DNA from: Gemmatimonadota bacterium
GTDB taxonomy: Bacteria > Gemmatimonadota > Gemmatimonadetes > Gemmatimonadales > GWC2-71-9
Length of the DNA: 32,656 nt
Assembly (NCBI GenBank): GCA_003223395.1
Contig: QHUZ01000044.1
Span: 1-32,656, forward strand
Direction: 5' to 3'
The notes under the pieces are model-generated. The model was not told the DNA's origin. It did no database searches and was given only the letters and a program-made list of their open reading frames with translations. The translations under genes were made by a program, and so were the position numbers. Below are positions 12,073 through 31,810 of the stretch, piece after piece. The stretch's first letter is position 1; each line of letters opens with the position of its first letter.

Positions 12073-12761
12073 CGCTCGATCCGATACCCGAAGGTCCGGA
12101 CGGTAACGATGTGGCGGGGATGGGCGGGATCGCGCTCCAGCTTGCGCCGCAACATGGCCACGTGCGTGTCCACAGTCCGGCTCATCACGTCCTCGGCGTA
12201 GCCCCACACCTCGCGCAGCAGCTCGAGACGGCTCGCCACGCGCCCGCCGCGTTTGAGCAGTGCGGCGAGCAGCGCGTATTCCTTGGGCCGCAGCTCCGCC
12301 GGCCGGCCGGCTCGCCGCACCTGGTGGCGCGCGAAGTCCACCGTGACGTCGCCGAAGCCGTGCAGCGACGGGTCCCCGGCGTCCTCGCGCCTGATCCACT
12401 CGAGAAAATCGGCTGCACGCTTGACCGTCCCGATGATGCGCTCGTCGTCGAACGGCTTCAGGAGATAATCGAACGCCTGGATCTCGAACGCGTGTACCGC
12501 GTGCTCTTCGAACGCGGTGACGAACACGATCGCCGGCGGCCGCGCTTCGTTCACCGCCGCCGCGACCGCGAAACCGTCGAGGTCGGGCATCTGAATGTCC
12601 AGGAACACGAGATCCGGCGGCGGCGTCGTGCGCCGCAGCAGCTCCACGGCGTCGCGACCGCTCGAGCACTCCTCGATGTGCGTGACGCTGCTGATCTGCT
12701 GCAGCACGCCGCGCAGCCTGCGCCGCGCCGGCGCTTCGTCGTCAACGATGATCGCGCGCAT
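12069..12761 (-). CDS. Hybrid response regulator: LytT/AlgR-type receiver with PhoB-type winged helix
   Basis: The 230-residue regulator has a receiver domain with acidic pair Asp7-Asp8, phosphoacceptor Asp55 (FLDIQMPD), Thr82 and Lys102 (LLKPFDDE). The strings EAPARRRLRGVL and FEIQAFDYLLKPF are those of LytT/AlgR-type receivers, which normally carry a LytTR DNA-binding domain. Here residues 135-229 are instead an OmpR/PhoB winged helix (RPKEYALLAALLKRGGRV, SRTVDTHVAMLRRKLE, TVRTFGYRIE). The gene overlaps the upstream kinase gene by 20 nt, so the two are translationally coupled and presumably partners. It probably acts as a phosphorylation-dependent transcription factor; targets are unknown. 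The stop shares CTAG with the convergent hydrolase gene. Confidence 0.93.
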   Translation of the reverse strand: MRAIIVDDEAPARRRLRGVLQQISSVTHIEECSSGRDAVELLRRTTPPPDLVFLDIQMPDLDGFAVAAAVNEARPPAIVFVTAFEEHAVHAFEIQAFDYLLKPFDDERIIGTVKRAADFLEWIRREDAGDPSLHGFGDVTVDFARHQVRRAGRPAELRPKEYALLAALLKRGGRVASRLELLREVWGYAEDVMSRTVDTHVAMLRRKLERDPAHPRHIVTVRTFGYRIER

Positions 12762-13794
12762 GATCGGAGTAGGGAATGTCGATCACGGCCAGGGCGCCGC
12801 CGGGGGCCGGGGCGGGGGCGTTGGTCAGCTCGAAGCGATGACCCGGACCGTACAGCTCCTGCAGACGGGCCCGTGTGTTGGCGAGTCCCAATCCTCCGCC
12901 GCTGGAGCTGCCGTTGAGGCCCGGCCCGTTGTCACGCACCTCGAGATGCAGGCGGTCACCCTCCCGGACCGCGGCGATCGAAATCTCCGCGACGTTGCCG
13001 TTGGGGACGACGCCGTGTCTGATCGCGTTCTCCACAAGCGGCTGCAGGAGCAAGGTCGGGACGACGGCGGATGCGGCCCGGGGATCGACGCGAAATGTCA
13101 CGCGCAGACGATCGCCGAATCGCGCTTCCTGGATGGCGACGTAATGGTCCAGCAACTCGAGTTCCTCCTCGAGTGTGACGAGCGGACCCCGTTCCCGGTT
13201 AAAGGATTGCCGCAGCAGCTCCGACAGGCGCGCGATCATCCGGTTCGCCTGCTTGGGATCCTCGAGGACGAATGCCGAAATGGTGTGCAACGTGTTGAAG
13301 AGGAAATGCGGCTGGAGCTGTCCCACGAGCGCATCGAGCCGCGCCTGTACGAGCTGCGTCTCGAGTCGAGCGGTGCGCCAGGCGTAATACAGCCCGGCGA
13401 CCATCGCGTAGACGAGCACATTGAACGTCCACCAGATCCCGATGCCGTCCAGCACGCCCGTGAGGAACGTATGCGGTGTGCGCCACAAACCGAGCGCCCA
13501 TTTCAGGCCGCCCTCGAAGCCGGCGCAGGCGACCGCGGTGATCAGCGCCATGGGAATGTGGGCGGCGATGACCACCGCCGGCCGGCGAATTCGGATGGCC
13601 CATGCGGCAAACGCGCATGCCGGCGCCGTAAACAGCGCCCAGCTCCACCACCCCGTGAGCTGCCAGGCGAGGATCCAGCTCCAGGATCGTGGGTCGGCGC
13701 TGCCCACCGTCTGGAAGTGCATCTGGATCGCGAACAGCAGCGCGACCGCGGTCCAGGCACCCCAGATGATCAGTGCACGCTTCACGAGCTTCAT
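12742..13794 (-). CDS. LytS/YehU-type sensor histidine kinase
   Basis: The 350-residue membrane kinase has about four hydrophobic segments in residues 7-135 and a short coiled region (ARLETQLVQARLDAL). A His_kinase (PF06580) domain follows, with phosphoacceptor His163 in LQPHFLFNTLHTI. The ATPase domain shows the N-box LLQPLVENAIRHG and G-boxes VRDNGPGL and GGGLGLANTRARL. Kinases of this family usually pair with LytTR regulators. This one is fused by overlap to a regulator with a PhoB-type output domain. No extracellular sensor domain is large enough to suggest a ligand, so it may sense within the membrane. The ATG follows a perfect GTAGCATGCTAC palindrome by 1 nt. Confidence 0.93.
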   Translation of the reverse strand: MKLVKRALIIWGAWTAVALLFAIQMHFQTVGSADPRSWSWILAWQLTGWWSWALFTAPACAFAAWAIRIRRPAVVIAAHIPMALITAVACAGFEGGLKWALGLWRTPHTFLTGVLDGIGIWWTFNVLVYAMVAGLYYAWRTARLETQLVQARLDALVGQLQPHFLFNTLHTISAFVLEDPKQANRMIARLSELLRQSFNRERGPLVTLEEELELLDHYVAIQEARFGDRLRVTFRVDPRAASAVVPTLLLQPLVENAIRHGVVPNGNVAEISIAAVREGDRLHLEVRDNGPGLNGSSSGGGLGLANTRARLQELYGPGHRFELTNAPAPAPGGALAVIDIPYSDHARDHR

Positions 13795-28069: not shown

Positions 28070-29455
28070 GTGTTGTGGCTGGCGCTCGTGAGTGGCTGTG
28101 GCCGCCAGCCTGTCGCCTCGGTGTGGGTCACCACGGGCGATCAGCGGAAACTCCTTTCCCGCGAACCCGACGTTGCTTTCTCGACGGCTGACACGACGGG
28201 ACTTCCGACGATCGCCGTGGCCGACACGCCGAGCTATCAGGAAATGGTGGGGTTCGGCGCGGCACTCACCGACGCGTCCGCGTTACTGATCAACGGGCTA
28301 CCGCCCGATCGCCGGGACTCGTTGCTGCGTGACCTGTTCGACCGGGACAACGGAATTGGCTTGAGCTTCACGCGACTCACCATCGGCGCGTCCGACTTCT
28401 CGCCGACTCATTACACCTTCGACGACATGCCGCCGGGACAGCACGATTCGTCGTTGCTGCGCTTCTCGATCGAACCGGATCGCGCGCACCGGTTGCCGGT
28501 GCTGCGGCGTGCCCTGGCGATCAACCCGGAGCTCAGGATCATGGCGTCGCCGTGGAGCGCCCCCGCCTGGATGAAGACCAGCGACAAGCTCATCGGGGGC
28601 ACGTTGCGTCCCGATGCGTACGGGCCGTTCGCGGAGTATCTGGCGCGCTATGTCGACGCCTACGCGGCCGAGGGCGTGCCGATCTTCGCGCTCACGGTGC
28701 AGAACGAGCCGCACTACGAGCCTGGAGACTACCCGGGCATGCGGCTCGAGCCGCCCGCGCGAGCGCGCCTCATCGCCGCATACCTCGGCCCGCGGCTCGC
28801 GCGCGCCGGATCCCGGACTCTCATCTTCGATTGGGATCACAACTGGGATCAGCCGCAGTCGCCGCTCCAGGTGCTCGCCGACAGCGTGGCGCGCCGCTAT
28901 GTCGCAGGAGTGGCGTGGCATTGCTATGGCGGTGACGTAGCCGCCCAGGGGACGGTGCACGACGCCTATCCCGCGGTGGATGCCTACTTCACGGAATGCT
29001 CGGGCGGCGACTGGGCGCCGAAGTTCGCGGAGAATCTTCTTTGGGGCACGCAGCACCTGATCATCGGGGCGACGCGCAACTGGGCGCGCGGTGTGCTGTT
29101 CTGGAATCTCGCGCTGGACGAGAACCATGGTCCCCACCTCGGCGGATGCGGCAATTGCCGCGGCGTGGTCACCATCGACTCCAAATCGGGCGCCGTCACG
29201 CGCAACGACGAGTACTACGTGCTGGCGCACGCCAGCCGGTTCGTGCGCCAAGGCGCGCGGCGCATCGCATCGTCATCCGGTGTGGCTGGGCTCGAGAGCG
29301 TCGCGTTCAGGAATCCCGACGGCTCTCGCGTGCTCATCGTGGTGAACACGGCCGCTGGGGAACAACGGTTCGCGGTCCGATCTGCAGGAAAAACGCTGAT
29401 CTACGTGTTGCCGGCGGGCGCCGTGGCGACGCTGCGCTGGCTAGATCGAGTTTAG
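28070..29455 (+). CDS. GH30-family glycoside hydrolase lipoprotein
   Basis: The mature 450-residue protein matches GH30 (glucosylceramidase-like / endo-beta-glycanase). The opening is EMVGFGAALTDASALLINGL, the acid/base Glu lies in TVQNEPHYEPGD, and the nucleophile Glu lies in AYFTECSGGDW. The closing beta-sandwich ends with LPAGAVATLRW. It acts on beta-glycans outside the cytoplasm; substrate linkage cannot be fixed. The lipobox LVSGC is clear. The start is problematic. The nearest canonical codon is GTG at 28070, giving only 10 residues before the Cys and no positive charge. A natural signal ([15 protein letters not shown]) would begin at GTA 28055-28057, which has GGGGA 7 nt upstream and overlaps the aconitase stop. 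Confidence 0.9.
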   Translation: MLWLALVSGCGRQPVASVWVTTGDQRKLLSREPDVAFSTADTTGLPTIAVADTPSYQEMVGFGAALTDASALLINGLPPDRRDSLLRDLFDRDNGIGLSFTRLTIGASDFSPTHYTFDDMPPGQHDSSLLRFSIEPDRAHRLPVLRRALAINPELRIMASPWSAPAWMKTSDKLIGGTLRPDAYGPFAEYLARYVDAYAAEGVPIFALTVQNEPHYEPGDYPGMRLEPPARARLIAAYLGPRLARAGSRTLIFDWDHNWDQPQSPLQVLADSVARRYVAGVAWHCYGGDVAAQGTVHDAYPAVDAYFTECSGGDWAPKFAENLLWGTQHLIIGATRNWARGVLFWNLALDENHGPHLGGCGNCRGVVTIDSKSGAVTRNDEYYVLAHASRFVRQGARRIASSSGVAGLESVAFRNPDGSRVLIVVNTAAGEQRFAVRSAGKTLIYVLPAGAVATLRWLDRV

Positions 29456-29878
29456 AAAAGCCTCGAGCTCGGCCGGCGGCACGGCGCCCACCCGGCGCGC
29501 CACTTCCTTGCCGTCCCGGAACGCGATCAAGGTCGGAATTCCCCGCACACCGAAGCGCGTGCCGGCAGCCGGATTCCGATCGGTGTCGAGCTTTGTCACG
29601 AGGATCTGGCCGGCGCGGCGGCGCGCGACGTCATCCAAGAGCGGCGCCATGATCTTGCAGGGCCCGCACCAGTCCGCGTAAAAGTCCACCACCACCGGCA
29701 CCGTGCTGTCGGTGGTGACCCGCTCGAACGACGCATCGGAAATCGCGATGGGACGGTCCAGCCGGATCGGCTTGCCGCACTTGCCGCATTTGGGGTGCTG
29801 TTCGATGCGCGCGAGGTCCACGCGATTGAGGGTTTCGCAGAACGGGCAGACGACGGTCGCTGTTTGCGCGCTAGCCAT
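29441..29878 (-). CDS. trxC: Thioredoxin 2 (zinc-containing TrxC)
   Basis: The 145-residue protein has an N-terminal zinc ribbon (CPFC, Cys11/Cys14, and CGKC, Cys31/Cys34) followed by a thioredoxin domain with active site WCGPC (Cys71/Cys74) and the cis-Pro in RGIPTLIAF. TrxC reduces disulfides and peroxidases in the cytoplasm and is often oxidative-stress induced. The gene lies 10 nt downstream of the AhpD-like selenoprotein gene on the same strand, so it is a strong candidate for that enzyme's reductant. The 3' end overlaps the convergent GH30 gene by 15 nt. Confidence 0.95.
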   Translation of the reverse strand: MASAQTATVVCPFCETLNRVDLARIEQHPKCGKCGKPIRLDRPIAISDASFERVTTDSTVPVVVDFYADWCGPCKIMAPLLDDVARRRAGQILVTKLDTDRNPAAGTRFGVRGIPTLIAFRDGKEVARRVGAVPPAELEAFLNSI

Positions 29879-29888
29879 GAATCAGACA

Positions 29889-30455
29889 TCACCCCCGGCC
29901 AACGCCGAGGGCATCGGCCACACGGTTGATGTAATTGAACCACGACGCGATCAGCGTGATCTGCAGAATTGCCCGATCGTCGAATCCTACTCGGCGCAGC
30001 TCCTTATGGTGCGCCGGGCCGATGCGCGTGGCGTCGCGCGTGAGCTGCGCCACGTAGTCCAGCATCACCCGTTCCTGCTCCGAGATCGGCGCCTTGGTGT
30101 AATCGTCCTCGAGCGCCGCCACGAGCGACTGATCCAGCGTGATCCGACGCAGAAACTCTGCGTGGGATTCAATTCAGTATCGGCAGCGATTCGTGACCGA
30201 GACGACCGTGGTGATCATCTCGTGCTGGCGGCGCGTGAGCGGCAGGTCGGACGACATGAGCGCCCCAAAGGTCGCAAACGCGTGATACAGCGCGTCGGGG
30301 ATCAGGCTGTGCGAGGCGACGATGCCGGACGTCCCGTCAGCCGTGGGGTGGACCGGCGTCGCGTATTCCTTGGGGTACATCGCCTTCTGCGCCTCTACGG
30401 CACGGCGCAGCTTCTCATCCCCCTCGCTCAGCGGAACTGTGCGAATCCAGGTCAT
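29889..30455 (-). CDS. AhpD-like peroxidase-related selenoprotein with in-frame TGA (Sec94)
   Basis: Read through the TGA at 30174-30176, the frame gives 188 residues of the AhpD / carboxymuconolactone decarboxylase fold, closest to the 'uncharacterised peroxidase-related' subgroup. The 93 residues before the TGA end in [19 protein letters not shown]. The sequence after it continues without a frame shift as [20 protein letters not shown] and ends [16 protein letters not shown]. The TGA stands where the family has the second Cys of CxxCxxxH, giving Cys91-x-x-Sec94-x-x-x-His98. A bSECIS-like hairpin starts 5 nt downstream of the TGA. The AGGA before the ATG is supplied by a heptad repeat. Upstream is an amino-acid permease gene, downstream trxC. 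Selenocysteine genes are not in the window. The alternative is a pseudogene or a base error. Confidence 0.88.
30142..30168 (-). promoter_or_regulatory. Candidate bacterial SECIS element
   Basis: The RNA-sense strand forms a stem of AUCC/GGAU (4 bp), one C-C mismatch, then ACGCAG/CUGCGU (6 bp), closed by the loop AGUUU. The loop G is the second loop base and lies 18 nt after the UGA. This agrees with the described bacterial consensus of a short-looped hairpin with G among the first two loop bases, about 16-37 nt downstream of UGA. It lies inside the coding region, as bacterial SECIS elements do. Confidence 0.75.
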
Positions 30456-30460
30456 CGGAT

Positions 30461-30516
30461 CCTAGGGGTTAGGGGCTAGGAGCTAGGGGCTAGGGGTTCG
30501 GGGTTCGGGCTAGGCC
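30461..30516. repeat. Seven-copy GCTAGGG heptad array between permease and selenoprotein genes
   Basis: On the plus strand the units read CCTAGGG, GTTAGGG, GCTAGGA, GCTAGGG, GCTAGGG, GTTCGGG and GTTCGGG, then a diverged CTAGGCC. On the coding (minus) strand the array encodes the Pro/Ser/Asn-rich tail of the permease, includes its stop, and runs to 5 nt before the selenoprotein ATG. It supplies AGGA as a Shine-Dalgarno site there. Confidence 0.85.
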
Positions 30517-31810
30517 GTCCACGAAAAAGTAGATAGTAGACTGGCACCCCAACGGCGACAATACCGACACCGAGCGCGGCCTGCAGCGGGTTGCGGGCGG
30601 CCACTAAGAAGAGCACCACGGCGACCAGCACGAGAAACACGACCGGCGTGGCTGGATAACCCCAGGTGCGGTACGACGCCGCAGGTGCGCGGCGCCGGAT
30701 GCCGAACAGGCCCGCCACGGTCAACCCGACGAACAGCACCGTCACGAAGACGAAGTACCCGATGATTTGATTGAACGTGCCCAACGCCACGTAGAGCGAG
30801 GCGATCGCCGCCTGGATCGCGATGGCGCGAGCCGGGGTTCCGAAGCGCGGATGCTCGGCGGCCACTGCCCTGAAGAACACACCGTCGCTCGCCATCGCGT
30901 AATAGACGCGCGGCAGTGCCATGAGCAGCCCGAGCAAACTGCCCAGCACCGCGACGATGACCACGCCCGAGAACACGCGGCCGCCCGCCGGTCCGAACAA
31001 CGCCTCGCCGGCTTGCGCCGCGAACGTCTCGCCGGACGTCACGCGCTCGAGCGGGACGAGATAGAGAAAGACGGCGCTCGTCAAGATGTAGATGGCGGTG
31101 ATGATCGCCACCCCGATCGCAAGCGCGCGCGGCACCGTGCGGGCGGGATCCCGCGCTTCCCCCGCCAGCTTGGGGATTTCCCACCAGCCTCCGAATGCAA
31201 AGAACGCGCCGACCAACCCCGCGGCCAACGCCATTGGAAGCGGATCCGAACCGGCCCGCTGCGCGACGAAGGGCACGAAGTTCGACCAGCTTCCTGCGTG
31301 CAGCGCGAATGCCAGAATCGCAATGAGTGCCAGCGCGCCGAGCTTCAGCGCGGTGAGGCCCTGCATGAGTCCGGAGCCGAGCCGCAGGCCCGCGATATTG
31401 ACCGCCGAGATCGCAAGGATGGACCCGATCGCGATGAGTTTGAGCCACACGCCGGAAACGCCCAGCGCGTAGCCGACGTAGCTCGCGAGTCCGGCGGCCA
31501 GTGCCGCGGTGATGCCGGGATCCATGACGAGCAGGCATTTCCAGCCGTACAGGAAGGCGACCGCGGGACCATAGGCTTCACGCAGGTACACATAGCCGCC
31601 GCCCGCCTGGGGCGTTCGTGCCGCGAGCTCGCCATAACACAGTGCGCCGCTCAGCGCCATCACACCCATGACCAGCCAAACGACCAACAACCAAAACGGC
31701 GAGCCCAGCGAGCGCGCCATGCCCGCCGGCGTGAGAAAAATCCCGATGGCCACGACCTCGCCAACGACGAGTGCCGTGACGGCGACGAGACCAAGCTGAC
31801 GGCGTAGCAC
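30476..31810 (-). CDS. APC-superfamily amino-acid permease
   Basis: The 444-residue protein has about 12 hydrophobic segments. The APC opening motif is present (LVVGEVVAIGIFLTPAGMAR in TM1, with the unwound G-I-G-I-F-type site), followed by ALCYGELAARTPQAGGGYVY in TM2-loop. TM6 reads FFAFGGWWEIPKLAGEARDP, where the usual WE-NLPGEVKNP-type conserved stretch follows. It most resembles LAT-like amino-acid transporters; the substrate is unknown. It starts at GTG 31810 with no clear Shine-Dalgarno site. TATCTT lies about 7 nt upstream and might be a -10 element. The C-terminal tail is encoded by the heptad repeat and looks unstructured. The selenoprotein gene begins 20 nt downstream. Confidence 0.9.
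   Translation of the reverse strand: MLRRQLGLVAVTALVVGEVVAIGIFLTPAGMARSLGSPFWLLVVWLVMGVMALSGALCYGELAARTPQAGGGYVYLREAYGPAVAFLYGWKCLLVMDPGITAALAAGLASYVGYALGVSGVWLKLIAIGSILAISAVNIAGLRLGSGLMQGLTALKLGALALIAILAFALHAGSWSNFVPFVAQRAGSDPLPMALAAGLVGAFFAFGGWWEIPKLAGEARDPARTVPRALAIGVAIITAIYILTSAVFLYLVPLERVTSGETFAAQAGEALFGPAGGRVFSGVVIVAVLGSLLGLLMALPRVYYAMASDGVFFRAVAAEHPRFGTPARAIAIQAAIASLYVALGTFNQIIGYFVFVTVLFVGLTVAGLFGIRRRAPAASYRTWGYPATPVVFLVLVAVVLFLVAARNPLQAALGVGIVAVGVPVYYLLFRGRPSPNPEPLAPSS

Follow-up and report, generated by a model that had tools for sequence, protein, structure and literature searches.

The window analysed here, a stretch of 32,656 nucleotides from a Gemmatimonadota genome (assembly of 3.41 Mb, 97.6% complete), carries on its minus strand a gene with an internal TGA codon, flanked by a thioredoxin gene and an amino-acid permease gene. 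The features are as follows.

29441..29878, minus: Thioredoxin-2-like gene (N-terminal zinc ribbon and thioredoxin); its start lies about 10 nt past the stop of the selenoprotein gene
29889..30455, minus: AhpD-like (TIGR01926, peroxidase-related) putative selenoprotein gene, 188 codons and a stop TGA
30174..30176, minus: UGA codon 94, predicted to be read as selenocysteine (Sec); second position of CxxUxxxH
30476..31810, minus: APC-type amino-acid permease gene, just upstream; the most often conserved neighbour

From 30455 to 29889 the gene is a single frame on the minus strand, whose sole internal stop is the TGA at 30176-30174 (codon 94). The translation reads M-T-W-I...TNRC91-R-Y-U94-I-E-S-H98...G-R-G, followed by a terminal stop (29891-29889) that is also TGA. 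Since the gene itself ends in this codon, UGA still serves as an ordinary stop in the genome. The list of open reading frames (at least 80 aa) gives 30174-30455 as a frame ending at the internal TGA; the rest of the gene, 30173-29889, stays open in that frame and has no entry of its own. A preliminary description of this DNA had proposed that the two halves are one gene split by TGA, and both its coordinates and its motif prove exact: the internal TGA occupies the second Cys position of CxxCxxxH.

The same description named trxC as a neighbour. The thioredoxin gene is indeed present here, but it is not conserved beyond close relatives: among the 103 related loci with room downstream it occurs in five, all of them close relatives. 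It is therefore weak evidence for a functional partner, and we reject the idea of trxC as a conserved partner as a general rule. About 30 of the 110 loci, from Gemmatimonadota as well as Acidobacteriota, have the permease upstream. No ahpC adjoins the gene, whose flanks are the thioredoxin and the permease. Neither of these neighbours shows the task of the enzyme. The gap that separates the permease from the selenoprotein gene (window positions 30456-30520) contains short repeats of CTAGCCCCTA, which stand just before AGGA, a likely ribosome-binding site.

Conservation of the TGA codon and of both halves of the gene

Relatives of the gene were sought in one genome per species. Of the 245 found, 80 were fetched; they come from Gemmatimonadota, Acidobacteriota, and single records of Latescibacterota and Planctomycetota, which may be binning errors. 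Together with 30 loci from a search of the phylum they make up 110 loci, some of which are one contig under two names, and 99 of which are distinct over the 60 nt that begin at the UGA. Among named relatives, Gemmatimonadetes MAGs come nearest, in agreement with the phylum guessed beforehand. Codon 94 is TGA in all 110 loci and Cys in none. Since the search patterns left codon 94 out, this uniformity is not built into the sample.

Both halves of the gene are under purifying selection, as had been claimed when the gene was first described as conserved and not decaying. Compared with those close relatives that align without gaps, to which the estimate was confined, dN/dS is 0.06-0.10 before the TGA and 0.04-0.16 after it. 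High first-half dN values against three loci (L025, L057 and L060) were left out; they probably arise because the sequences were compared without gaps although a small indel separates them near the N terminus. Judged from these substitutions, the part after the TGA is both translated and conserved. Chance is excluded because the TGA stands at the same codon in every one of the 110 loci and dN/dS is low in both halves.

Could the TGA nonetheless stem from faulty sequencing or assembly, or mark a gene that is decaying through a nonsense mutation, with TGC or TGT as the true codon? One substitution would yield a standard CxxC protein, and there are 11 Cys relatives in the phylum; but the TGA recurs at every locus in many independent assemblies, the selection just described acts on both sides of it, the codons of the hairpin that follows it are frozen, and the genome holds a complete Sec machinery (see below). 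A sequencing error is untenable because about 89 distinct genes, nearly all in other assemblies, would have to share it. On the strength of the 110 loci and the dN/dS values, we reject error and pseudogene alike, and regard the probability of this explanation as practically nil.

A tree of 118 proteins places a Sec-only core clade (89 rows) at the end of a long branch with full support, and the 11 Cys proteins fall in two places, both among distant relatives. Within the core, the Gemmatimonadota sequences sit among Acidobacteriota sequences, a placement which suggests that the gene may have been transferred between the phyla, support within the core being uneven and the bootstrap not settled.

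One Cys relative may be described separately. In a genome of the same family as the window genome, a TIGR01926 relative (L133 in genome G141) has TGT (Cys), and SelA was not detected in that genome. The protein is nested among Sec proteins, and its hairpin is decayed. We conclude that it likely represents a loss of Sec followed by adoption of Cys, i.e. a Sec-to-Cys reversal.

The hairpin after the UGA and the selenocysteine machinery

Immediately downstream of the UGA, the transcript can form a hairpin with the following elements.

30147..30163, minus: predicted bacterial SECIS hairpin, stem ACGCAGA / UCUGCGU
30156-30154, minus: its apical loop GUU, the first base being the invariant G; the loop starts 17 nt after the UGA

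The best evidence for this hairpin comes from synonymous codon usage. Codons 98-103 read CAC GCA GAG TTT CTG CGT and are nearly invariant: in 90 distinct core sequences, CAC is found in 88, GCA in 88, GAG, TTT and CTG in all 90, and CGT in 87. Elsewhere in these genes, GCA accounts for 8% of Ala codons, TTT for 28% of Phe, CTG for 39% of Leu and CGT for 10% of Arg. Across 89 full-length genes, codons 98-103 have the lowest synonymous variation of the gene (0.054 versus a mean of 0.752, with a window standard deviation of 0.123), and the codons flanking them vary freely at synonymous sites.

The pairing of the stem points the same way. In distant UGA relatives the codons are CAC GGR GCG GGN CTC CGT, or nearly so, and fold to ACGGRG-loop-CUCCGU, so that the C-G pair at columns 17/27 of the hairpin alignment is changed to G-C, a compensating change. 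In the 23 sequences of that alignment the loop G is invariant, and 94.4% of cells pair; shuffling lowers this to 83.3% and sliding to 58% or less. Since the shuffles leave relatedness in, the codon comparison is the stronger of the two lines of evidence. In the Cys homologues the hairpin is largely lost: the A14-U30 pair is kept in none of 11 and the pair at columns 18/26 in two of 11. Taken alone, the folding energy of the region does not stand out from that of shuffled sequences (z of -1.3); minimum free energy was therefore uninformative as stand-alone evidence, and codon freezing and covariation decided the matter. From these sequence comparisons we judge that the hairpin is a bacterial SECIS with a G in its apical loop.

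A third Sec subgroup (L144, L148 and L149) has the motif UxxAHAHDLR or UxxSHAHDLR, and in it the common hairpin is broken. A candidate alternative hairpin, GACCUC-CGGGNN-GAGGUY, can be read from these sequences further downstream.

The preliminary description had proposed looking for selA, selB, selC and selD in the parent genome, and all four are present: a tRNA-Sec (77.6 bits; anticodon TCA according to ARAGORN), a SelB above its curated cut-off with the C-terminal SelB part of the profile included, a SelA (516 bits) and a SelD (392 bits). The gene for SelD (L018:1501-2433, minus strand, contig C109) carries a UGA of its own, in the motif GAGUACK, at the known Sec/Cys active-site position of SelD. 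It is thus a second gene of this genome that uses UGA at a catalytic position, and the SelD of this genome would itself be a selenoprotein.

Across the phylum, SelA is found in 282 of 395 genomes. Among the matches listed, 102 of the 111 genomes that have the TGA form carry it, against one of 10 with only the Cys form (Fisher p = 4e-8, for genomes that are related and hence not independent); the nine TGA genomes in which SelA was not detected are mostly fragmented or incomplete assemblies. The homologues have TGA as codon 94, and such Cys homologues as were found occur mainly in genomes that lack SelA.

An alternative is that TGA is a general sense codon in this genome (e.g. for Trp or Gly), or is read through by ordinary suppression. 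TGA is a rare stop in the window, where just one other of the 14 listed genes ends in it; yet that gene (12742-13794) and the selenoprotein gene do both end in TGA, the internal TGA is always at the catalytic Cys position with a SECIS hairpin after it, and the full set SelA/B/C/D is present, with SelA tracking the TGA form. We reject general recoding, since TGA is also a stop, in this gene included, and consider the alternative as a whole extremely unlikely.

With the machinery present and TGA conserved at codon 94 of the homologues, the selenocysteine reading first put forward for this gene is upheld: UGA 94 almost certainly encodes selenocysteine. These sequence features strongly support decoding by SelB together with Sec-tRNA-Sec, under the direction of the hairpin that follows the codon.

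Family, fold and proposed chemistry

Scored with Cys as residue 94, the protein reaches 110.9 bits on the TIGR01926 profile (cut-off 81.8), and it scores 46.9 bits against the Pfam CMD profile (cut-off 23). It belongs to the TIGR01926/CMD superfamily, as had been suspected. Membership in TIGR00777, the canonical AhpD family, is rejected, the score of 20.8 bits lying far under the cut-off of 191.95. The following residues make up the putative active site together with position 94.

30219..30221, minus: Glu79, equivalent to Glu118 of AhpD, with equal spacing to the Cys pair; invariant
30183..30185, minus: Cys91, first residue of the CxxU redox motif; invariant in the alignment
30162..30164, minus: His98, equivalent to His137 of Mycobacterium tuberculosis AhpD; invariant in the alignment

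In M. tuberculosis AhpD the proton-relay residues are Glu118, Cys130, Cys133 and His137 (PMC3141380). Their spacing is that of Glu79, Cys91, Sec94 and His98, and these four positions are invariant across 43 relatives.

The AlphaFold model (pLDDT 93.5, pTM 0.89) is all-helical and AhpD-like, with an active-site helical hairpin formed by helices 75-89 and 92-106. Foldseek matches it to 6k40 and 2prr with a TM of 0.83-0.84 and to 2oyo and 2pfx with a TM of about 0.83. The AhpD-like debrominase Bmp8 is also among the structural matches (TM 0.75).

We have very little doubt that the gene encodes an AhpD-like, peroxidase-related selenoprotein whose UGA 94 is decoded via the hairpin, and which is most likely a thiol/selenol redox enzyme. 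Its chemistry may be sketched by analogy with M. tuberculosis AhpD and Pseudomonas aeruginosa PA0269. The aligned residues Glu79, Cys91, Sec94 and His98 would form an AhpD-type proton-relay site. Attack on a peroxide, or on a partner in oxidised form, would come from the selenolate of Sec94. Cys91 would then resolve the product by forming a selenenylsulfide, after which a thioredoxin or a lipoyl/dihydrolipoamide system would act as thiol reductant and restore the enzyme.

Because the AhpD-like fold also includes the debrominase Bmp8, a role other than peroxide reduction must be considered. The selenoprotein might serve as a disulfide reductant for AhpC-like proteins, just as M. tuberculosis AhpD is an adaptor for AhpC, or might act on organohalides as does Bmp8; moreover, PA0269, a relative that has been characterised, is a weak peroxidase (PMC3141380). 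Against such a role stand the retention of all AhpD proton-relay residues and the closest folds, which are peroxidase-related proteins, although neither of these tells substrates apart. We regard a task of this other kind as possible, but on the unlikely side.

Relation to known AhpD-like proteins

Several consequences follow for annotation and for the biology of the phylum. The seemingly broken gene is an intact selenoenzyme gene, and pipelines without a matching selenoprotein model are expected to truncate such genes at codon 94. Selenocysteine is widely used in this large soil phylum, most of which is uncultured, and the same selenoprotein is widespread in Acidobacteriota. The proposed extension of such proteins to Gemmatimonadota holds for the phylum, but not as an exceptional case, Sec use being common there. 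In the literature on selenoproteins we found nothing specific to Gemmatimonadota; Acidobacteria were listed with selenoproteins already in 2006 (PMC1794560).

Among solved structures, the closest relatives are the uncharacterised peroxidase-related proteins 2pfx, 2oyo, 2prr and 3c1l and the Deinococcus radiodurans AhpD 6k40 (E-values from 1e-21 to 8e-16). The chains 2pfx and 2oyo, for which two alignments are shown, have Cys where the window protein has Sec94. M. tuberculosis AhpD (1gu9, 1knc) is a weak match overall, with a TM of 0.5-0.6, and has Cys133 at the position of the Sec. The Tyr that precedes Sec94 is found in PA0269 as well.

Two NCBI families that are AhpD-related and named as (seleno)proteins, NF041238 (AhpD_rel_CFYUT) and NF053654 (GroundWater_YciW), do not include the window protein: with 55.4 bits against a cut-off of 175 and 36.3 bits against a cut-off of 310, membership in either is rejected. 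No NCBIfam selenoprotein model scores above its cut-off for this subfamily.

The preliminary description had mentioned AhpD-like selenoproteins from metagenomic surveys, and the CxxU form is indeed an established family. The Sargasso Sea survey of 2005 reported 27 AhpD-like CxxU sequences and four CMD-domain proteins (PMC1088965), the GOS survey reported 299 and 70 AhpD-like sequences (PMC2398784), and a 2026 review lists TIGR01926 CxxU (PMC13188914). With the survey groups AhpD-like and AhpD-like 1 (COG2128, TIGR01926) the window protein shares the fold family, Sec at CxxU, and a bacterial SECIS directly downstream. The survey proteins come mostly from marine metagenomes, whereas the window protein belongs to a deeply branching, mainly soil subfamily with a HAEFLR/SECIS sequence of its own, in which no Cys member was found; it is set apart from the survey proteins on the basis of their descriptions.

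A Sec-only subfamily whose SECIS is nearly frozen across phyla offers a good case for asking why Cys cannot replace Sec. One might speculate that this is an obligate-Sec AhpD-like subfamily, passed between Acidobacteriota and Gemmatimonadota, with a task in soil that is beyond Cys and a substrate that is possibly not a simple peroxide, a proposal which we consider doubtful at present. In sum, the AhpD-like CxxU selenoprotein is a kind already known, to which the window protein belongs; what is new is how widely it occurs in Gemmatimonadota and Acidobacteriota and, apparently, from the sequences compared, a deeply branching, Sec-only subfamily in soil phyla.
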